From an uncultured Clostridia bacterium (GTDB lineage: Bacteria > Bacillota > Clostridia > Oscillospirales > Acutalibacteraceae), in contig CANQBP010000002.1 of assembly GCA_947589415.1 (NCBI GenBank), positions 1 through 64,000 of the forward strand: 64,000 nucleotides of DNA, read 5' to 3'. Position 1 is the first letter of the stretch. Each line of letters starts with the position of its first letter. A model generated the notes under the pieces. That model was not told the origin of the DNA, did not search any database, and saw only the letters and a program-made list of their open reading frames with translations. Of this stretch, positions 1 to 30,034 are shown one piece after another. A program made the translations under genes and the position numbers.

Positions 1-1308
1 GACGGTGAAGAAATTATACAGTCCGTGGACGTCTATTACAGCAGTTTTGGAGATCCTTTTAATATTGACGGTAAATACCCTGAAATGAAAACTCAAATTG
101 TTTTCACTAAAAAATCCGACCCACATATTGAAGACAGCGATGGGGATGGTTTTTTGGATGGAGAAGTATATAAAGATATAGAGGGCAGAAGTTTGCCTAA
201 AGATCCAAAACCATTAAAATATGAAATTATACCCTATCTTGACGATTTGTGTGATTTAGCAATGATATATACCAACGATTTTGAAAAAAGTCAAAAATTA
301 GTTCTTGACTATATTCGAGCAGGAAAATATGTTGATGTTAGTGGTAATGTTTATGGCGATATTTATGACAGTGTATGGGGTTATACTTTAGGGGAAATTG
401 ATTCGGAGTTTATAAAATATGTTAATAAAGAAAATCCGAATATACAATCTTATATCTATTGTAATGGTGAAATTGATGCAAAATATATTAAAGATCCTGT
501 TACAAAGGAATTGATTGACTTTACTCATTTTGCAGCAACATTTGGTGCGTATTTATTTTATACAGATCCAGTGATAACCTTGTTGGGATCAATAGCTAAA
601 GGCTATCCTAATATGACTGATTCTCAAATAAATAATTTAGCCGGTTGGGCAGGAGATTTACAAACATTTATACAAAATGATTTACTGATATACTATGACA
701 GAGATTATGGGACATGGGAAGGCGATCATTATTTTGATGAAAGTGTATTAAATCAGTACTCTGAAGATGATTTTAGGCGATTAACAATTAAATTGCTGAC
801 GGACTCTCGGCAAAATGATTATGACGATTCTACACATATATTATTAAATAATAAGCGTCTTAAAAATACATTATTTAGACTTGAAGATCAAATAGCTGAT
901 ATAGATGCTGTTAATATATGCAAATATTATTCCTTACAACTTTCGCTTAAACAACCGGTAACAATTTCTGAATGCATTAATAATTATTACTTGTGTATTA
1001 ATGAATCCAATTCCTGTACAAAAAGATACGATTCTTTTTTTGAAAGCTTATTCTACTTAGATAGTGACCATAGTTACGAGAACAAATATTATGCTCTTTG
1101 CATTGACTATCTGAATGGAAATATTACATTGTCAGAACTAAAAGAAGCTGAATTTAATTTATATTATGATTATGTAATAACTTATACAAACCGTAATGCA
1201 CCGGATGGAAAAAAATGGAAATTATACCTAAACGCACCTGTTACCGAAAATGTTTCTAAAGGAGTTGCAAAGGGGTTTGTTGAATATATAATTTATAGGA
1301 GAGGTTAG
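1..1308 (+). CDS. C-terminal part of a large secreted protein, possible toxin-like C-terminal domain (partial)
   Basis: The frame is open from the first base, so the gene starts upstream; a GTG at 25 is internal and has no ribosome site. Near the start is DSDGDGFLDG, a thrombospondin-type-3/EF-hand-like calcium-binding loop common as a spacer in secreted clostridial proteins. The rest is Asp/Tyr-rich and globular, with no membrane segment. Around residues 170-220 of the visible part, a His in a THFAATFGAY stretch is followed by GWAGDLQT, a spacing that looks enzymatic, but I cannot assign a family. It is followed directly by many small membrane-anchored proteins and gene remnants, as is typical for the effector gene of a polymorphic toxin locus. 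The toxin role is inference; an ordinary secreted enzyme is the alternative. Confidence 0.6.
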   Translation, partial: DGEEIIQSVDVYYSSFGDPFNIDGKYPEMKTQIVFTKKSDPHIEDSDGDGFLDGEVYKDIEGRSLPKDPKPLKYEIIPYLDDLCDLAMIYTNDFEKSQKLVLDYIRAGKYVDVSGNVYGDIYDSVWGYTLGEIDSEFIKYVNKENPNIQSYIYCNGEIDAKYIKDPVTKELIDFTHFAATFGAYLFYTDPVITLLGSIAKGYPNMTDSQINNLAGWAGDLQTFIQNDLLIYYDRDYGTWEGDHYFDESVLNQYSEDDFRRLTIKLLTDSRQNDYDDSTHILLNNKRLKNTLFRLEDQIADIDAVNICKYYSLQLSLKQPVTISECINNYYLCINESNSCTKRYDSFFESLFYLDSDHSYENKYYALCIDYLNGNITLSELKEAEFNLYYDYVITYTNRNAPDGKKWKLYLNAPVTENVSKGVAKGFVEYIIYRRG

Positions 1309-1313
1309 ACGTT

Positions 1314-1714
1314 ATGGTTGAAAAAAAAAATTAAAAATATTATTGACAATTATAATAATCATCATATCGTTAGTTACGTTATGTTTTTTGGTAATCAGAT
1401 TGATAACAAATGCTCCAAGGACTATTTATGAAGAAAAATCAGATATTCACAATATAGTTGTTGAAATACAAGCTATTCAACCGGACGATATAAAAGTAAT
1501 AAATGGTTCTTGTGAGTATTGTATCAATATTTATCGTAATGATCTTTTTGATAAAACTCGATTGCTATCTGAAACATTTGATTACACCAAAGATGAAGGG
1601 TTACTATCTAAAGAAAATATCAAGGTTAATTGGTTTGAAAGTGAAGTGCAAGTAATCATTAGTAAGTCCATTGGAAGTGATAAATACCAAAAAGTTTTTA
1701 CATGTGAATATTAA
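1314..1714 (+). CDS. Small membrane-anchored protein with start-proximal frameshift in an A10 run
   Basis: AGGAGAGG at about 1297-1304 is well placed for an ATG at 1314. Reading from that ATG hits TAA at 1332, because the run of ten A (1321-1330) puts the remaining 120 or so codons in another frame. That frame can otherwise begin only at TTG 1343, which has no ribosome site. One extra A would fuse ATG 1314 to the long frame, giving an N-terminus with Lys residues, then an Ile-rich membrane anchor and a soluble domain of about 100 residues. It lies 5 bp after the upstream secreted protein, as an immunity gene would. No family recognised. The intended start is inference; sequencing error, phase variation or transcriptional slippage are all possible. 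Confidence 0.5.
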
Positions 1715-1809
1715 ATGCCCGGTTTTTTATAGTGACGACGACAAGTCATATGTTAAGTTGGTAAAACAAATTATGTCAAATTGCCAGAAAAAATATTGAT
1801 ATTTGTGGA

Positions 1810-1872
1810 ATGATGTGGTATAGGGATTATGTTATTTTTGATAGGGGGGACGGTATGTTGCGTTGGATGTAA
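1810..1872 (+). pseudogene. Remnant of a gene 3' end (copy 1 of the WYRDYVIFDRG fragment)
   Basis: A short frame from ATG 1810 to TAA 1870-1872 reads MMWYRDYVIFDRGDGMLRWM. The stretch 1813-1848 is identical to 3666-3701, where the same residues sit in a longer open frame. The DNA just upstream (1770-1809) aligns loosely with 3627-3665, so this is a decayed copy of the same 3' gene end. It contains six G where the other copy has five. No function is claimed. Confidence 0.45.
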
Positions 1873-2113
1873 TAGAGGTTTTGAAACATGGCTTGAAATA
1901 TCATCAAACGGATATAGGCGGTATATTGATTTTAAGGAATATCTGTCATATACCAAAGAGCAGGAAAAAAGGCGAAATACTCTTGATAGTATACTTGGTA
2001 TCAAGGACTATCGCTGGGATAATAACATTTTAAAAATAAGTGTCATTCCTAATATTATTGTGGAGGTGTCCAAATGGTTAAAAAGCTCAGCAAAGGAAAA
2101 GTTGCAAGTCTGA
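1829..2113 (+). CDS. Hypothetical protein or truncated immunity-like gene fragment
   Basis: A 94-codon frame that begins inside the repeated 36-bp element, so its first 15 or so residues are probably not native. The later part, from FETWLEISS onward, has a normal mixed composition with Trp, Tyr and Asp and resembles a piece of a small soluble domain. It overlaps the start of the next gene by 40 bp, and the ribosome site of that gene lies inside it. I see no ribosome site for the ATG at 1829. It is most likely a 3' fragment left by recombination, but a short functional protein cannot be excluded. Confidence 0.3.
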   Translation: MLFLIGGTVCCVGCNRGFETWLEISSNGYRRYIDFKEYLSYTKEQEKRRNTLDSILGIKDYRWDNNILKISVIPNIIVEVSKWLKSSAKEKLQV

Positions 2114-2892
2114 TTATATTTTCAGTAGTAGTTTTGGTTATAGTTATAGTAGCAGTTAAAAAAATAGTTGATTACATAAATGATACAGAGAATAGAAATT
2201 TCTATAATTATGTTTATTCCGAGATGTTAAAACTTTATGATGATGTAGAACTGAGTACAGGTCTAAGTCCACGTCTTGAAGAAAATAAAAAAACCTCGGA
2301 GTACTATCTGTCAACTAATTTTAGAGTAAAAAAAAATTATCCGGCAGATGAAATAAATAAAGATCATTTTCTTAGAGAGGCGGCGGATTTAAGGGAGATT
2401 TGTATAAAATATTCCGAACAACACCGGGATGGAAAATTCGGGGAAATAACCGGTTGGAGGATAGCTGCTTTGGGGGGGATTCCGGATTATGATTTTATAG
2501 AGTTTGGCAAAGATTATGATGAAACGTTTGGCATGGAAGAAAATAAAGCTTATGATAGTATCTCTTTACGGGATTTAGATAAGATAAGGGTTGGAGTTGG
2601 AATGTGTGAGGAAATAACGCTTAGTGATTTACGGTATTTTTCTGATTGCAAGCAAATTATTACATATAGTCTTTCCGGCATAGATCGTGATTGCGATTTC
2701 AGCGAATTTGAAAATTTGCGTTGTTTTTGTTCCGGATTTATAGGTGGTGGTGGAAGATCATATGTTTCCGATGATGAACTGGATCGTTCCGGTAATGGGA
2801 GAGAACTAGAAGAAAAAGTATTGTCAAATCTGCCCAAGGGTTGTCGTTATTACACTATTTATCACGGAAAAAATAATATTCTTATAGCATGA
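2074..2892 (+). CDS. Membrane-anchored hypothetical protein, 272 aa
   Basis: GGAGGTG at 2061-2067 fixes the ATG at 2074. The protein has a lysine-rich N-terminus, one Val/Ile-rich membrane segment (about residues 10-29) and a long acidic extracellular domain with many Tyr and Asp, including a GGGG run near residue 225. No known family is recognised. The C-terminal motif EKVLSNLPK recurs as a detached fragment at 5251-5350, so this family has had at least two members here. An immunity or accessory role for the upstream secreted protein is inferred from context only. Confidence 0.55.
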   Translation: MVKKLSKGKVASLIIFSVVVLVIVIVAVKKIVDYINDTENRNFYNYVYSEMLKLYDDVELSTGLSPRLEENKKTSEYYLSTNFRVKKNYPADEINKDHFLREAADLREICIKYSEQHRDGKFGEITGWRIAALGGIPDYDFIEFGKDYDETFGMEENKAYDSISLRDLDKIRVGVGMCEEITLSDLRYFSDCKQIITYSLSGIDRDCDFSEFENLRCFCSGFIGGGGRSYVSDDELDRSGNGRELEEKVLSNLPKGCRYYTIYHGKNNILIA

Positions 2893-2967
2893 TGAAAAGG
2901 TAAAATCGGAGTCTGATGTGTGGGGATACCGCCGGTATCCCCATACCCTGACACGGCAGGAAAGAAG
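2883..2967 (+). repeat. 85-bp direct repeat with perfect hairpin, copy A
   Basis: Identical over 85 bp to 5341-5425. It begins in the last codons of the preceding gene and contains the inverted repeat TGGGGATACC (2921-2930), a 3-base loop, and GGTATCCCCA (2934-2943). It has no run of T after the stem, so it does not look like a normal terminator. A third, diverged copy lies at 3591-3645. Confidence 0.85.
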
Positions 2968-3106
2968 TACGTATTATGGATATTCTCCGGCAGATGCGGG
3001 GCAGGACATACGTGAAAATTATAGTGATTATATATATTATGATTACTGTTTGCTATCAGACGGAACTTATACAGAAGCCGTATTTGATGCCGAATGCAAT
3101 GATTAG
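2918..3106 (+). pseudogene. Gene remnant downstream of repeat copy A
   Basis: A 62-codon frame starting in the hairpin of repeat copy A. Its first 15 residues are simply the repeat translated. The remainder, including DYIYYDYCLLSDGTYTEAVF, looks like the C-terminal end of a real small protein. It ends in TAG followed by ATTAACTTT, a string also found after the end of the lipoprotein gene at 5530-6063 and after the fragment at 3546. That shared 3' flank suggests the fragment is the tail of a once-larger gene. Confidence 0.4.
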
Positions 3107-3128
3107 ATTAACTTTGAGGTGACAGACA

Positions 3129-3488
3129 GTGTTTAAAGTTTTAAAAAGATGTGCTATCGTTTTAATGGCTTGTATTGTTATTTTTTCGCTAATTTTTGTA
3201 AGTTATGTATATATGTATATCTTTCCTAAATTGAATATTTATGAAAATATAGATAAATTTGAGTTTTATAACAATAATAATGACTTGATTACAATAAAAC
3301 CTACTGACTATGATTTTGAGATTACATATAAGTCATATATTACAAAAGAACAACTATCAGGAAAGGTAATTTATAGTGATGGTACTGTCGGAAAAATGGT
3401 ATATTATTCTCCGGGCAACCTTTTAAAGATTGAGGGAATATCGTTTTTTATTTACTTGAAATCGAATAAATGGATAGCTTACCCCTAA
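3129..3488 (+). CDS. Small membrane-anchored hypothetical protein, 119 aa
   Basis: Starts at GTG 3129 after GAGGTGA. One hydrophobic segment (about residues 8-32) is followed by an Asn/Tyr-rich domain of about 85 residues predicted outside the cell. The size and layout match the frameshifted gene at 1314-1714 (anchor plus about 90 residues), though I do not see convincing sequence identity. No family recognised. It sits between two gene remnants in the repeat-rich island. Confidence 0.5.
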   Translation: MFKVLKRCAIVLMACIVIFSLIFVSYVYMYIFPKLNIYENIDKFEFYNNNNDLITIKPTDYDFEITYKSYITKEQLSGKVIYSDGTVGKMVYYSPGNLLKIEGISFFIYLKSNKWIAYP

Positions 3489-3791
3489 AAAATTTTATCA
3501 ATAATAGATTCAGCACAAAATACAGGTTATAGGTTTGATACATATTAACTTTCGCAACAATGAACAGAACATGGATAGAAAAAGTAGTTATGTGGGGATG
3601 CTGCCGACATCCCCACACTGCCCCGGCAGGAAAGAAGAAAGTATGACCTTGATGTAAGCAAAATAATGTGGTATAGGGATTATGTTATTTTTGATAGGGG
3701 GACGTCCGGCAGCTCTATATGGTTCTATTTTATCAAAAGAAAATGAACATAGTAACGATACTGAACATGATTTATTAAGGGGAAATTATAT
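3489..3791 (+). repeat. Gene-free stretch with two 3'-end remnants and hairpin repeat copy C
   Basis: No intact gene. A frame ending TGYRFDTY at TAA 3546-3548 is followed by AACTTTC, like the end of the lipoprotein gene at 6063. Then comes hairpin copy C: TGTGGGGATG (3591-3600), 7-base loop, CATCCCCACA (3608-3617). An open frame 3588-3746 follows through the hairpin and the CGGCAGGAAAGAAG string shared with copies A and B, and carries the 36-bp element 3666-3701 shared with 1813-1848. The stretch ends at the ribosome site (AAGGGG, 3778-3783) of the next gene. Confidence 0.7.
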
Positions 3792-4154
3792 ATGAAAAAA
3801 ATAAACACAATCAGATTGATACTCCCACAAATACTTTTGACAGTTATTTGTATAATATATCTTTTTATCAGTCAAATATTATTTTATGTGAAAGTTAAAT
3901 CCATAGCATATGGATTGGATTCTCTCAAAGTGGATCCTATAACCGGAATGGTGACACCGAATCCGAATGTTATTTTGGGGTTAAATCTTTTTATGAAATA
4001 TCAATATTTCAATTATGTTGTTTTGCTTTTCTTTGTTCTTTTGTGCTTTTTACGTTATGCCATCATGCGTAAAAAAGTATTCAATAAAAAAGTATATGTG
4101 GTTATCAATTGCATTTGTACTGTTGTAATTGCACTGTTTAATATTGTACTTTGA
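3792..4154 (+). CDS. Hypothetical membrane protein with about 3 TM segments (first of a pair)
   Basis: ATG 3792 follows AAGGGG at good spacing. 120 residues with hydrophobic segments at roughly 8-32, 70-92 and 98-119, and a short outside loop between the first two. Lys/Arg clusters after segments 1 and 2 set the topology. It is followed 13 bp later by another 3-TM protein of similar size. The pair closely matches, in size, order and layout, the pair at 14745-15439. No family recognised. A membrane immunity complex is one guess. Confidence 0.55.
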   Translation: MKKINTIRLILPQILLTVICIIYLFISQILFYVKVKSIAYGLDSLKVDPITGMVTPNPNVILGLNLFMKYQYFNYVVLLFFVLLCFLRYAIMRKKVFNKKVYVVINCICTVVIALFNIVL

Positions 4155-4167
4155 AGGGATGATTTAG

Positions 4168-4539
4168 ATGCAAAAAAAATCCAATATTATTTTGTTTGTT
4201 GTTCAACTGATTACAAGCATCTTTGCCACAATAGTAGTAAAATTTGAAATAGACTCTATGCTAAATTATTATAAAGCCAATTTGGAGAGTTATAATAAAT
4301 TTTTAATTCATTGGGGCAATTATTCATGGTATGAACTAATGTCGTATGAAATACGAGGTATTTTCAGAATCTTTCAGATACATATGTTTATCATTATTGT
4401 CTTAATTACCGTTATAGGGATAGTAACATTTCATTTCAATAAAAATTCCGATAGATTAAAAAAAATAATAATTATTTTATCTTCATTTTTACCAATAGTT
4501 TTTTCTGCTATATATCCGATAATAGTGGGAAACTTTTGA
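4168..4539 (+). CDS. Hypothetical membrane protein with 3 TM segments (second of a pair)
   Basis: ATG 4168 follows GAAGGGATG. 123 residues: TM about 8-26, a soluble loop of about 45 residues, TM about 70-90, a basic loop, TM about 98-120 with prolines in the last segment. The protein encoded at 15110-15439 has the same plan, an Ala-Thr-Ile motif in TM1 and prolines in TM3. Probably co-transcribed with 3792-4154. Function unknown. Confidence 0.55.
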   Translation: MQKKSNIILFVVQLITSIFATIVVKFEIDSMLNYYKANLESYNKFLIHWGNYSWYELMSYEIRGIFRIFQIHMFIIIVLITVIGIVTFHFNKNSDRLKKIIIILSSFLPIVFSAIYPIIVGNF

Positions 4540-4704
4540 GTACATATCCGAATGTATGCACTGTTTCCAAAAATATATGAATTTAAAAAAATGAAATGTT
4601 GAATGAAAAGATAATATACGCCATGAATTTTCAAATACTACTGTAATAATTTTTGCAAACAGAATAGTGTACGTAATACATATGAGGGAGGTTATCATTA
4701 CATC

Positions 4705-5250
4705 ATGATGAAGAAAGCCAATAAAAAATTAGTTGTTGTAATTGTGCTGTTTTTTATTCCTGTATGTATTTTGGGTGGTGGATTTTTATGTGCATATCTT
4801 GTGGCTATACATAACAGCGCCTATAATGAAACTTGTGCACAAATTGGGAGTTTGGTTTGGCAAATTGTTGATGAATCGTATGATAATTACGGAAATATAG
4901 AATTCAGTGAGTACAAGGATGTTGTTTCTTCTGATATTTATGATAAGATGTATTATATGGAATATTTCCGTGATGAAAACGGAGAATATCCTGACAGAAG
5001 TGAGTATAAGGATATCAGACTGTCATATCATTCATATGTGGATGTAACTTTAAATAGCTCAACTGAAGCAACTGCAACTTATGAGGTTGCATATGACTAT
5101 GTACCTGCGGAGGCAGAAGCATCATATCGCGGTGAGCACCCTTATTACAGTCTCCATACCGGTGAAATGCGCACTTGCATGGTTACATTAGAATTGCAGG
5201 ATGACGGCAAATGGCATATTGTGGATTTTTCACGTTTGCAATCATGCTAG
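4705..5250 (+). CDS. Membrane-anchored hypothetical protein, possible NTF2-like fold
   Basis: AGGGAGG at 4684-4690 precedes ATGATG at 4705. The protein has a Lys-rich start, one TM or uncleaved signal (about residues 10-32) and an extracellular domain of about 145 residues ending in a strand-rich pattern, with MVTLELQDDGKWHIVDF near the end. That ending is typical of NTF2-like or DUF4878-type secreted domains, but the assignment is tentative. The 165 bp before it (4540-4704) contain no clear gene. Confidence 0.5.
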   Translation: MMKKANKKLVVVIVLFFIPVCILGGGFLCAYLVAIHNSAYNETCAQIGSLVWQIVDESYDNYGNIEFSEYKDVVSSDIYDKMYYMEYFRDENGEYPDRSEYKDIRLSYHSYVDVTLNSSTEATATYEVAYDYVPAEAEASYRGEHPYYSLHTGEMRTCMVTLELQDDGKWHIVDFSRLQSC

Positions 5251-5350
5251 AGCTACCAGTGATACGAAAGAACTTAGAGAAAAAGTATTGTCAAATCTGC
5301 CCAAGAGTTGTATCTGTTTCAGCGGAGACATTCGTATAGGTATAGCATGA
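5251..5350 (+). pseudogene. Detached 3' end of a paralogue of the gene at 2074-2892
   Basis: In frame, this reads ELREKVLSNLPKSC and ends GIA with TGA at 5348-5350, matching ELEEKVLSNLPKGC and ILIA at the end of the 2074-2892 product. There is no start codon or upstream coding region; it abuts the stop of the previous gene. The exact 85-bp repeat begins just before its stop, as in the intact paralogue. Confidence 0.75.
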
Positions 5351-5425
5351 TGAAAAGGTAAAATCGGAGTCTGATGTGTGGGGATACCGCCGGTATCCCC
5401 ATACCCTGACACGGCAGGAAAGAAG
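5341..5425 (+). repeat. 85-bp direct repeat with perfect hairpin, copy B
   Basis: Exact copy of 2883-2967. Hairpin arms are 5379-5388 and 5392-5401 with loop GCC. After the shared block the sequence continues GAAAGTATGACATTGATGTA, resembling copy C at 3636-3655, so copies B and C share more downstream sequence than A does. Confidence 0.85.
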
Positions 5426-5529
5426 AAAGTATGACATTGATGTAGCGGAATAACGGGGTATAAGGATATACTGTTTAGATTATATAGCACTAACCTATGG
5501 TAGTGAAAAATTGAAAGTAGGTTAAAGAT

Positions 5530-6063
5530 ATGAAAACAAAAATCAGTATTGTAATTATAATGGTTCTGTCAATATTTCTGACAGGTTGCAGTTTGAATTT
5601 AGATATATGGGATTTTACGGACAATTCCTCCGAAAAACTTACACCGAAACAAATAATGGAGGAGATTTTAGATTGTTTTGAAAAGAAAGATGCCGAGAGA
5701 TTGAAAAGTCTGTTTTCGGAAAAGGCAAACAGCAATGAAGATGATTTGAATAATGAAATTTCCGAAGCATTTGACTTTTTTAAGGGAAATGTTGTATCTG
5801 TCGGGCACGTTTACGGAGATAGATTTACAGCAGAAACCAGAGAAGAATATGGGATTACCAAAAAGAATATATTAGGGGAGGCGAATGATATAGAGATGGA
5901 TAATGGAAAAGTATATACTATTGCTTATGCCGGTTGGGAGATTTTTAAGGCGGACGAAACGGCATTGGGAGTAAACGCTGTTACGGTTTATAAACCAAAT
6001 ACATATGATGACTCCGGAAAAATTGAGCTTGTAAATATTGGTTCTTTGTACGATATAGATTAA
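5530..6063 (+). CDS. DUF5104-like lipoprotein
   Basis: 177 residues with a lipoprotein signal: Lys, hydrophobic core, LTGC lipobox (Cys20). The mature part begins with an acidic linker, then LTPKQIMEEILDCFEKKD and an AFDFFKGNVVS motif, a pattern I associate with the DUF5104 family of secreted clostridial lipoproteins. The probable ribosome site is the AAAGTAGG at 5514-5521, 8 bp before ATG 5530. It is the last gene of the accessory island and shares its 3' flank with gene remnants upstream. Function of the family is unknown; an immunity-type lipoprotein is inference. Confidence 0.6.
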   Translation: MKTKISIVIIMVLSIFLTGCSLNLDIWDFTDNSSEKLTPKQIMEEILDCFEKKDAERLKSLFSEKANSNEDDLNNEISEAFDFFKGNVVSVGHVYGDRFTAETREEYGITKKNILGEANDIEMDNGKVYTIAYAGWEIFKADETALGVNAVTVYKPNTYDDSGKIELVNIGSLYDID

Positions 6064-6125
6064 CTTTCACGACCTTGAGAATGAATATACAGAAATAGTG
6101 CCTTATGCGGAAATGTTGCCGACAT

Positions 6126-23420: not shown

Positions 23421-24302
23421 TTAATAAATATTGTATTTGTTTGTTCCCGCCGAATGGTTCAGTCCTTTATGATACCGTTTTCTGCTGAAAGCAAATTCGG
23501 TGTTGTCCCCTTTAAGGTTAAGTATTACAATAAGAACTGCGGTAACAATTACACCTATAACCGACCAAATTATCATTCCTACGAGAAACGATGAATTATC
23601 CTTTTCAGAATTATAGGTTACTGCGGCAGAATGTTCATCATATTCAATGGACGGTGTACTGTCGAACCTGCTTGAATCATCTATTATAGCGGCAGCCTCC
23701 ATCGAGCTTTCTGCCGACGATTCATTTTCAATACTGCTTTCGGGTGCGGAAAATTCGGGATTGTCTGCGGGCAGTATATATTTGCCTCCGGTTATACCTG
23801 CGAACGGATCAACAATACTCGGAGTGCTGCTTTCGAGCGGCTCGTATGAAATTTCGGGCTCAGATATCGGTTCGGATTCGTCAATTTCCTCTGAAGGTTC
23901 AAATTCATTAACCGGCTCGGAAGTTTCATAGGACGACTCTTGTACGTTTGACGGTTCGGAGGGTTCTCCGTACGGCTCCTGTACATAAGACGTTTCGGAG
24001 GATTCCTCATATGACTCCTGTACGTATGACGGCTCGGAAGTTTCTGCGGAAGACTCCTGTTCATAAGACGGCTCCGACTCATATAAAGGTTCGGAAATCT
24101 CCTCGGACGGTTCTGACATATCTGACATATATGATGATTCCGCTGCGGACGGTTCGGTTTGTTCCGGAACGCTGACAAATTCCGACGATTCCTGCGCAGG
24201 TATGCTGTTTTCGGCGTAAGATGTAATACCGTAAACAGAAAAAACAGATGCGGTAAGCATTATTGCCGTAAGTACTTTAACATATCTCCTCATTTTTTTC
24301 AC
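23421..24302 (-). CDS. Secreted Ser/Glu/Pro-rich repeat protein with C-terminal membrane anchor
   Basis: 293 residues. Signal peptide (residues 1-30, ending SYAEN), then about 110 residues built from loose SEPSYVQES-type units, a spacer, one TM near residues 235-258 and a basic tail (SRKRYHKG). The repeats are low in complexity and acidic, as in cell-wall-spanning stalks. No catalytic domain is visible. Alone between aspS and spoIIP. Family not recognised. Confidence 0.7.
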   Translation of the reverse strand: MKKMRRYVKVLTAIMLTASVFSVYGITSYAENSIPAQESSEFVSVPEQTEPSAAESSYMSDMSEPSEEISEPLYESEPSYEQESSAETSEPSYVQESYEESSETSYVQEPYGEPSEPSNVQESSYETSEPVNEFEPSEEIDESEPISEPEISYEPLESSTPSIVDPFAGITGGKYILPADNPEFSAPESSIENESSAESSMEAAAIIDDSSRFDSTPSIEYDEHSAAVTYNSEKDNSSFLVGMIIWSVIGVIVTAVLIVILNLKGDNTEFAFSRKRYHKGLNHSAGTNKYNIY

Positions 24303-28522: not shown

Positions 28523-30034
28523 ATGAAACTTTGTGCTAAATGCGGTGCTACACTTCAGGATAATGCCGTGTTTTGTATTTCGTGCAATTCAAGAGAATTT
28601 GTGCCGTATGTTATGCCTGATTTGGATGCACCGGAGCCGGATAAACCACATATAGAATATGATCAATACGGAAGACCCATAGGTCAGGAATATACGCAGC
28701 CCGAATTTGAACAACCGCATTTTACGGAAGGAATTTCTGATGGAATTTCCGACAGCTTTCCCGGTTCGTTTCATGACCCTTTCGGGGACAGTTATTCCGA
28801 AGCTGCAAATTATCCGCAGTATATAGAACAGTATAATGCGCAGTCACAACCGGTACAACAGCAGTTCGGTAATCCGTTGACACAGCCTTTCGGACAACAA
28901 TATGAACAACCGCAGGCACAGTCTTACGGTCAGCAGTATGGACAGCCGCAGGCACAACCTTACGGACAACAGTATGGACAGCCGCAGGCACAGTCTTACG
29001 GACAGCAATATGAACAGCCGCAGGCACAGTCTTACGGACAGCAATATGAACAGCCGCAGGCACAGTCTTACGGACAGCAGTATGGACAGCCGCAGGCACA
29101 GTCTTACGGACAGCAATATGAACAGCCGCAGGCACAGTCTTACGGACAGCAGTATGGACAGCCGCAGGCACAGTCTTACGGTCAGCAATATGAACAGCCG
29201 CAGGCACAGTCTTACGGTCAGCAATATGAACAGCCGCAGGCACAGTCTTACGGACAGCAGTATGAACAACCGCAGGCACAGCCTTACGAACAACAGTATG
29301 AACAACCACAGGCACAGTCTTACGGTCAGCAGTATGAGCAACCGCAGGCACAGTCTTACGAACAACAGCATGAACAGCCGCAGGTACAGCCTGCACAGGA
29401 TAAACGACAAAGCAGGGTAAGGGATAAGCAGCGAAAGAAACCTGCCGCACCGCCGCCGAAAGAAACAGAAGCAGATGTACAGCCTGCCCCCGAGCAGACT
29501 GAACCCCCAAAACCGGTATTTGACTCTAAAAATTTTGTCTACGAGAAAAAAGAGGTGACAGAGGAAAATCCGGAGGAAAATAAAAAAGCAACGCCAAAAT
29601 CTTTCAAGGAGTTTATTGCGGCTCTGCAGGATACAAGGGATTTTACCAATAATTATAATGCTCAAGACTTTGCGGAACATAAGAGTCAATGCATACTTGC
29701 ATCACTCGGCATTACCTTTTGGATACCATATGTTCTTTGCAAGGACTCAAAATCGTCAAGATTTTATGCCAATCAAGGTTTTTTGACCTTGCTGCTTGAA
29801 ATTGTTTTCGGTTTGATTTATTGGCTGTTTTCAAATTTGATAAGTATAGGATTTGTTGAAAATACCTTTGAGGGCGGTTATCAGCTTAGTTTTGCGGGTT
29901 GGATAGTCGGCATCATTATTGCTGCAATCGTCTTTGCAATCCCGATATTCGTTATTGTTACGAGTATAATGAACATTCGTTCCGGGAAAATAAAGGAAAT
30001 CCCGTTTTTGGGTAAATTTAGAGTACTTCCATAA
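28523..30034 (+). CDS. Zinc-ribbon membrane protein with Tyr/Gln-rich tandem repeats
   Basis: 503 residues. N-terminal zinc ribbon CAKCGATLQDNAVFCISC (residues 4-21), an acidic Pro region, then fourteen 12-residue units of consensus YGQQYEQPQAQS (about 123-290), a basic stretch, a Pro/Glu linker, and a C-terminal region with about two TM segments (about 390-490) resembling DUF4870-type membrane domains (HKSQCILASLGI, FYANQGFLTLLLEIVF). The cytoplasmic repeat domain is highly enriched in Gln, Tyr and Pro. Function unknown. GGAGG precedes ATG 28523. Confidence 0.8.
   Translation: MKLCAKCGATLQDNAVFCISCNSREFVPYVMPDLDAPEPDKPHIEYDQYGRPIGQEYTQPEFEQPHFTEGISDGISDSFPGSFHDPFGDSYSEAANYPQYIEQYNAQSQPVQQQFGNPLTQPFGQQYEQPQAQSYGQQYGQPQAQPYGQQYGQPQAQSYGQQYEQPQAQSYGQQYEQPQAQSYGQQYGQPQAQSYGQQYEQPQAQSYGQQYGQPQAQSYGQQYEQPQAQSYGQQYEQPQAQSYGQQYEQPQAQPYEQQYEQPQAQSYGQQYEQPQAQSYEQQHEQPQVQPAQDKRQSRVRDKQRKKPAAPPPKETEADVQPAPEQTEPPKPVFDSKNFVYEKKEVTEENPEENKKATPKSFKEFIAALQDTRDFTNNYNAQDFAEHKSQCILASLGITFWIPYVLCKDSKSSRFYANQGFLTLLLEIVFGLIYWLFSNLISIGFVENTFEGGYQLSFAGWIVGIIIAAIVFAIPIFVIVTSIMNIRSGKIKEIPFLGKFRVLP
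28889..29392 (+). repeat. 36-bp tandem repeat, 14 in-frame units
   Basis: Fourteen units of 36 bp coding for [YF][GE]QQ[YH][EG]QPQ[AV]Q[SP]. Units differ mostly at third positions and at Gly/Glu in position 6. In-frame length means copy number can change without breaking the gene. All six reading frames stay largely open through it because of this repeat. Confidence 0.95.

Follow-up and report, generated by a model that had tools for sequence, protein, structure and literature searches.

Putative orphan toxin-immunity modules behind a TelC-like toxin gene in an uncultured Acutalibacteraceae bacterium

Orphan modules of rhs and cdi systems lie behind the main gene and consist of a scaffold fragment, a toxin tip and an immunity gene. 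To our knowledge, worked cases of orphan immunity arrays come from type VI secretion systems (T6SS), contact-dependent inhibition (CDI)/Rhs systems and type VII secretion systems (T7SS). In this study, we analysed a 64,000-nucleotide stretch (the window) from an uncultured Clostridia bacterium of the Acutalibacteraceae (contig CANQBP010000002.1 of assembly GCA_947589415.1, here C2). At its start, the 3' part of a secreted toxin gene, T1, is followed by an array of small genes, repeats and detached gene ends (Table 1). We consider it probable that a polymorphic toxin locus ends in this island, with orphan modules left by displaced tips and shuffled via repeated junctions.

The closest described systems resemble the locus in different respects. 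TelC/TipC of Streptococcus intermedius (PMC5555719, PMC6193138, PDB 5UKH) is alike in toxin fold, in aspartate-rich and histidine motifs, in the expected extracellular action, in a membrane-anchored immunity protein with an N-terminal transmembrane (TM) segment, and in several immunity paralogues at the locus. However, TelC is an LXG substrate of a T7SS, whereas the scaffolds that carry relatives of the window toxin are of vWA or TSP3 type, and Sec-like signal stretches occur in some of them. The T6SS arrays of Vibrio cholerae (PMC5361080) also show displaced effectors, old immunity genes kept downstream and a displaced effector 3' end, but with another secretion system and other gene families. 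The authors of that report argue that the recombination does not rely on specific integration sites, whereas here several of the junctions share a palindrome-containing unit. Orphan rhs/cdiA-CT modules (PMC3150448, PMC3967940, PMC3482391) share the order of truncated scaffold start, tip and immunity downstream, although on Rhs or CdiA rather than on a Gram-positive secreted CBM26/TSP3/vWA scaffold. In esaG/tipC arrays (PMC9484751), blocks shared by paralogues recombine and a toxin fragment (tspA) lies inside the immunity cluster; the window differs in having toxin scaffold pieces and palindromes between unrelated immunity families. Among the open-access papers listed, we recognised none by title as dealing with a vWA/starch-binding polymorphic toxin scaffold or with palindromes at orphan-module edges, which does not prove absence from print. 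The kind of system is already known, while the scaffold, the tip collection and the palindrome seem new.

The C-terminus of T1 is a TelC-like (prok-TelC, Lipocone) toxin domain. Prok-TelC domains have an H2 histidine, an H4 aspartate, a further aspartate six positions after it and a C-terminal arginine (PMC12419801), and TelC has an aspartate-rich motif (PMC5555719). The T1 domain showed the TelC fold, and its residues H98, D141, D218, D222 and D224 (six positions after D218) as well as R264 were invariant in 22 of 22 alignment rows; they were assigned to the published motifs by motif matching, not by measured superposition. The 24 TelC-like loci compared were collected with two short patterns, which miss relatives lacking them. 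L062, L065 and L071 were excluded from the alignment (A2) and L069 also from the tree; T2, the toxin of a second contig, C66, was placed in the tree but lies outside A2. The tree, built from 22 domains, placed T1 beside L048 (support 100/100) and T2 with L054, L055 and L066; the latter grouping reached 89/91, which falls short of the tree's threshold, and involves a long branch. The T1 tip is probably aimed at cell-wall synthesis, the predicted action being extracellular cleavage of lipid II, and the protein would probably be exported via a signal peptide. By eye, a Sec-like signal stretch begins the relatives L058, L060, L061, L064 and L070; the N-terminus of T1 lies outside the assembly. A search for viral relatives of T1 gave none. 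In L048, the closest T1 relative, an open reading frame (ORF) behind the toxin and its immunity gene resembles a DDE transposase by eye (L048:3033-4418).

C2 (161,847 bp) is one of 95 contigs of the genome, and C66 (6023 bp) carries a different version of the island. Read on its minus strand, C66 opens with 77 bp identical to window positions 1-77 and closes with 77 bp identical to part of the array gene f (4822-4898). Since the two overlaps are equal in length, they would resemble k-mer ends of an assembly graph. Between them lie the C-terminus of T2, genes b188 and c139, two tandem d genes, a pair of e genes separated by the 85-bp unit and a toxin tail, and finally the first part of f. We read C66 as a strain variant of the same site with the same flanks. 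Alternatively, C66 and the window could be two separate toxin loci of one genome, with no allelic swap seen. In favour of separate loci, both contigs belong to one bin, for which a low contamination was estimated (0.38). However, the overlaps are exact at both ends and in the same order, and no second 3' half of f was found in the bin, as a strain bubble predicts. We regard two loci as possible, though somewhat improbable.

The small genes of the array are probably immunity genes, and the best evidence is that the immunity family matches the toxin subtype. The next ORF was defined as the longest one whose start lay between 60 bp upstream and 350 bp downstream of the toxin end. An ORF of at least 70 aa started within 350 bp behind 21 of the 24 TelC-like loci; the other three had none. 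All 21 had an N-terminal hydrophobic segment, compared with 38 of 94 control ORFs (90-260 aa, same loci), and TipC likewise carries an N-terminal membrane anchor (PMC6193138). The gene directly behind T1, a123, resembled the gene behind L048, the partner of T1 in the tree (z 5.3, reached by 0 of 300 shuffles), although BLASTP gave no match between them at E 0.05. The d genes of C66 were related to the genes behind L054, L055 and L066, exactly those three (E 3e-7 to 5e-17). Linkage and subtype matching both suggest linked immunity genes of a polymorphic toxin system, and a123 is likely the cognate immunity protein of T1. Cognate protection by these genes is presumed. Relatives of a123, d, e, i, j and f, in the array or C66 version, were found behind toxins elsewhere; h119 had none in the searched loci and libraries. 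The true start of a123 is uncertain owing to an out-of-frame ATG just upstream, and an A-rich run (1314-1345) lies at its start. A relationship of i120 and j123 to two 118-aa genes of G063 was rejected, the similarity being no better than that of shuffles, as was one between f181 and the DUF5104 lipoprotein, which showed no similarity.

Remnants of a second toxin stand before e genes. The window ORF at 1829-2113 matched the end of a toxin of the congeneric genome G059 (41% over 58 columns, E 5e-7, tblastn), and the C66 copy matched the end of the same tip at E 1e-13. This secreted G059 toxin, the first of two, has four CBM26 stretches, TSP3 repeats, a vWA domain and a C39-like tip with cysteine and histidine motifs seen by eye. 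A homologue of e272 (34%, E 1e-26) lies directly behind this intact tip. Of the three full e genes, two therefore have the tail of their probable target toxin in front of them, while the first C66 e gene retains only about 29 bases of the stretch. The intact tip gave chance-like matches in a PDB search and none in Pfam, and a stand-alone relative in G038 fitted Peptidase_C39_2 weakly (E 0.021, below Pfam's cut-off), so the name "papain-like" rests on motifs seen by eye. Relatives of the tip occurred in 2 of 398 family genomes, the own genome and G038. In the G059 toxin gene (L046:4272-7754), a stop interrupts the frame after the signal-peptide stretch.

Related arrays in other congeners combine the same immunity families with different tips. 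Genes i, j and f recurred behind vWA-scaffold toxins (E 2e-35 to 7e-20), in the order toxin-i-j-f-i' in G060 and toxin-f-f-i-j in G058. The tips on this scaffold were Amidase_6 in G058, DUF3289 in the second G059 toxin, one matching no family in G060, and a metallopeptidase-like tip in two frames in G063 (family scores below Pfam's cut-off). A constant N-terminus with variable tips was thus found between C2 and C66 and on the vWA scaffold of G058, G059 (two toxins), G060 and G063. A vWA-linker query matched 37 of 64 congeneric genomes, at 83% or more only in G059 and G063 and in most others through the vWA part alone. G063 also has an orphan module in a single frame (L086:2437-3510), in which the last 25 CBM26 residues (E 0.0012, a match below Pfam's cut-off) are joined through a linker to an Amidase_6 tip (E 3.4e-19), with two small membrane proteins behind it. 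Its scaffold part was 92-94% identical to the G059 toxin gene. This arrangement of scaffold fragment, tip and putative downstream immunity genes is intact in G063 and eroded in the window and C66. On its far side, the G063 array has an LPxTG anchor end (L086:5320-5538).

An earlier note on this DNA had proposed that cassettes were swapped by recombination within shared 3' gene tails. The repeats on which it drew were confirmed: an 85-bp repeat (2883-2967 and 5341-5425) and a 36-bp repeat (1813-1848 and 3666-3701) are exact, whereas exact repeats reached at most 17 bp in 200 dinucleotide-Markov sequences of equal length. The detached e-gene 3' end was also found (5278-5432 against 2811-2974, 86% over 165 columns), as was the lipoprotein-like tail, though it is short (46 bp, 3518-3563 against 6033-6078, 72%). 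The score of this tail, 20, was reached by 0 of 2000 shuffles, and the best of 2944 tiles from 8000-64000 of the window scored 15. The shared ATTAACTTT flank occurs three times, all in the array (3107, 3544 and 6059). Because 29 of 100 shuffles also contained at least three copies per 64 kb, only this clustering is notable, not the count. A 110-bp query around the 85-bp unit matched, within the own genome, only the window array and C66 (8 matches at E <= 0.001, some being the palindrome read backwards).

The two repeats are parts of one longer unit and are contiguous in C66. The unit runs from an e-gene end through a palindrome to sequence matching the end of a CBM26 module. This end matched G059, G060 and G063 over 28 bp at 89-93%, with per-genome E values from 3.6e-5 to 1.5e-3. 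By a strict standard, those to G059 and G060, at about 1e-3, could count as borderline; all three matches hit the same codons. In this search, 53 of 64 genomes matched at E <= 1, and the next best after the own copies and CBM26 ends was 0.008, which is chance-like. The palindrome of the 3591-3704 unit matched G063 (94% over 32 bp) and G059 (84% over 45 bp), where it is followed by the same CBM26 end running into TSP3 codons. Six different sites carried the pattern GTGGGGAT-N9-ATCCCCA; they were spread over 3 of 64 genomes and always lay within these arrays, against one match for a reversed control pattern. The 64-kb window has seven perfect stems of at least 9 with 5 G+C, three of which are the array palindromes. 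Homology broke off at the palindrome in three comparisons (upstream of window 3591, upstream in G063/G059 by eye, and near position 256 of C66, inside the 3' arm), and in one comparison 22-29 bp past it (window 2967-2974). G060 has a different palindrome, CCGGAGAGATAC...GTATCTCTCCGG, twice, in a 115-bp repeat flanking f on both sides; its core, GATAC...GTATC, is similar to that of the window.

These palindromes might be sites of dedicated cassette capture or shuffling with integron-like logic, by a hairpin-recognising recombinase or replication-fork switching. We consider this doubtful. If it were true, gut Clostridia would collect immunity genes in a palindrome-punctuated array. Arrays L240 and L241 had no perfect stem of at least 9 with 5 G+C, which speaks against a universal role. 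Six aligned palindromes from G000, G059 and G063 showed too little covariation to support an RNA structure, with no pair changed on both sides and a value (0.060) equal to that of shuffles. No integrase family was found among the scanned array proteins, no genome-wide search having been made; a phage integrase lies about 300 bp past the last gene of the G059 array. The region directly beyond that array (L046:10855-13414) holds a phage-type integrase and a TnpB/Cas12f-like gene. A standard intrinsic terminator was rejected, as only 3590-3618 of the three window palindromes has a T-rich tail, on the minus strand. A virus-borne signal was likewise set aside: at least 120 stretches in IMG/VR fitted, which says nothing useful given how short the pattern and how large the collection is. 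The junction had no plasmid match at E 1e-5 and no Rfam match.

Table 1. Features of the toxin island at the start of the window.
Feature	Position	Strand	Remarks
T1, secreted polymorphic toxin gene, 3' part	1..1308	+	TelC-like domain about 235-1305; N-terminal scaffold past contig edge
77-bp stretch identical in contig C66	1..77	+	assembly junction; two toxin versions diverge here
a123, likely cognate membrane-anchored T1 immunity protein	1343..1714	+	resembles gene directly behind L048
Junction-unit remnant (CBM26 module end, 36-bp repeat 1813-1848), without palindrome	1796..1868	+	90% to C66 junction
Eroded detached C-terminal tail, papain/C39-like toxin	1829..2113	+	homology about 1874-2047
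e272, orphan immunity gene for papain-like toxin	2074..2892	+	homologue behind G059 toxin tip
85-bp repeat, copy 1	2883..2967	+	palindrome 2919-2945 inside
Detached gene 3' end, joined to 85-bp repeat	2976..3106	+	open frame 2918-3106 stops just before ATTAACTTT flank
h119, small membrane-anchored immunity-like protein	3129..3488	+	N-terminal hydrophobic segment
Detached 3' tail like lipoprotein gene end	3518..3563	+	72% to 6033-6078
Junction unit: palindrome 3591-3617 and CBM26 module end	3591..3704	+	91% to C66
i120, multi-TM immunity-like protein	3792..4154	+	homologues behind toxins: G058 (E 2e-33), G060 (E 4e-23)
j123, multi-TM immunity-like protein	4168..4539	+	homologues: G060 (E 2e-35), G058 (E 1e-31)
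f181, membrane-anchored immunity-like protein	4705..5250	+	homologues: G060, G058 (E 1e-24 to 7e-20)
Detached e-gene 3' end, 85-bp copy 2 (5341-5425, palindrome 5377-5403) and CBM26-end start	5278..5467	+	91% over 191 columns to C66
DUF5104 lipoprotein, last gene of the island	5530..6063	+	Pfam PF17117, E 6.7e-16

The displacement of tips is suggested by the TelC-like fold and residues, the papain-like tail before e272, the subtype-matched immunity families, the shuffled order in congeners and the scaffold remnants at junctions. In the proposed course, a new tip with its immunity cassette would recombine onto the conserved scaffold. The older module would be pushed downstream, losing most of its toxin and keeping its immunity genes. 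This course follows PMC5361080 in its displacement model and PMC3482391 in its cassette logic. The retained immunity genes may protect against kin carrying the old toxin. Duplication and unequal recombination between junction units (palindrome and CBM26 end) and gene tails would shuffle and trim the modules, and unit duplication would add copies, as in PMC9484751. We infer recombination within shared stretches and junction units from the breakpoints, and the displacement steps and their order from the remnants. The toxin-immunity turnover anticipated by the earlier note agrees with the TelC-like toxin end, the toxin-linked gene families and the variable cassettes, and the predicted variation in cassette content and order was seen between C2 and C66 and between species. 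Its proposed mechanism, recombination in shared 3' tails, needs amending: gene tails make up only some of the shared pieces, which also comprise the papain-like toxin tail and the palindrome/CBM26 junction unit.

Alternatively, the array may have grown mainly through duplication and decay of immunity genes, as in esaG/tipC, without tip displacement. Plain duplication did occur, and cassette swapping does not account for the whole pattern. In C66, a d unit of about 0.8 kb is a tandem duplicate (90%), and two copies (91%) of an e unit of about 0.9 kb lie about 0.33 kb from each other. In G060, a 340-bp stretch is duplicated at 91%, and the copies of the 115-bp repeat agree at 98%. However, duplication leaves unexplained the toxin tail before the e genes, the CBM26 scaffold fragments between modules and the in-frame Amidase_6 module behind another G063 toxin. 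We therefore judge it unlikely as the main course. A further reading, which takes the secreted protein for a housekeeping lipid enzyme and the array products for ordinary membrane proteins, is very improbable: the small array genes had no significant toxin or immunity family in Pfam or NCBIfam, but the TelC-like fold and residues, the linked subtype-matching partners and the shuffling of i, j and f behind toxins with different tips argue against it.

Under the displacement reading, the array keeps broken pieces of earlier weapons, so that replaced toxins and kept immunities would be readable from it. The secreted vWA/CBM26 scaffold here carries interchangeable tips, and an array-specific palindrome makes the question of module recombination testable. 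Orphan immunity arrays probably help decide survival in dense gut communities.

The island reaches from the contig edge to 6063 and is followed by NAPRT on the opposite strand. The earlier limits of 1715 to 6120 captured the array but were too narrow, as the toxin gene end (1-1308) and the variant on C66 belong to it. A T1 relative was found in 1 of 64 congeners, the own genome only, and T2 relatives in 2 of 300 family genomes, the own genome and G286; the island is thus rare. A close NAPRT orthologue was present in 22 congeneric genomes, and the NAPRT site was compared in 18 of them; some of these 18 loci end 0.9-4 kb past NAPRT. Relatives of the array proteins occurred in 0 of the 18 (tblastn, E <= 1e-3), and a conserved genomic site was rejected. 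No gene beyond NAPRT was common to all 18 loci; neighbours were shared within small groups. The island had no phage match at E 1e-5. Elsewhere in the window, there are a 39-bp tandem repeat at 23913-24074 (about 4 copies) and a 36-bp tandem repeat at 28881-29389 (14 copies, 90% matches).

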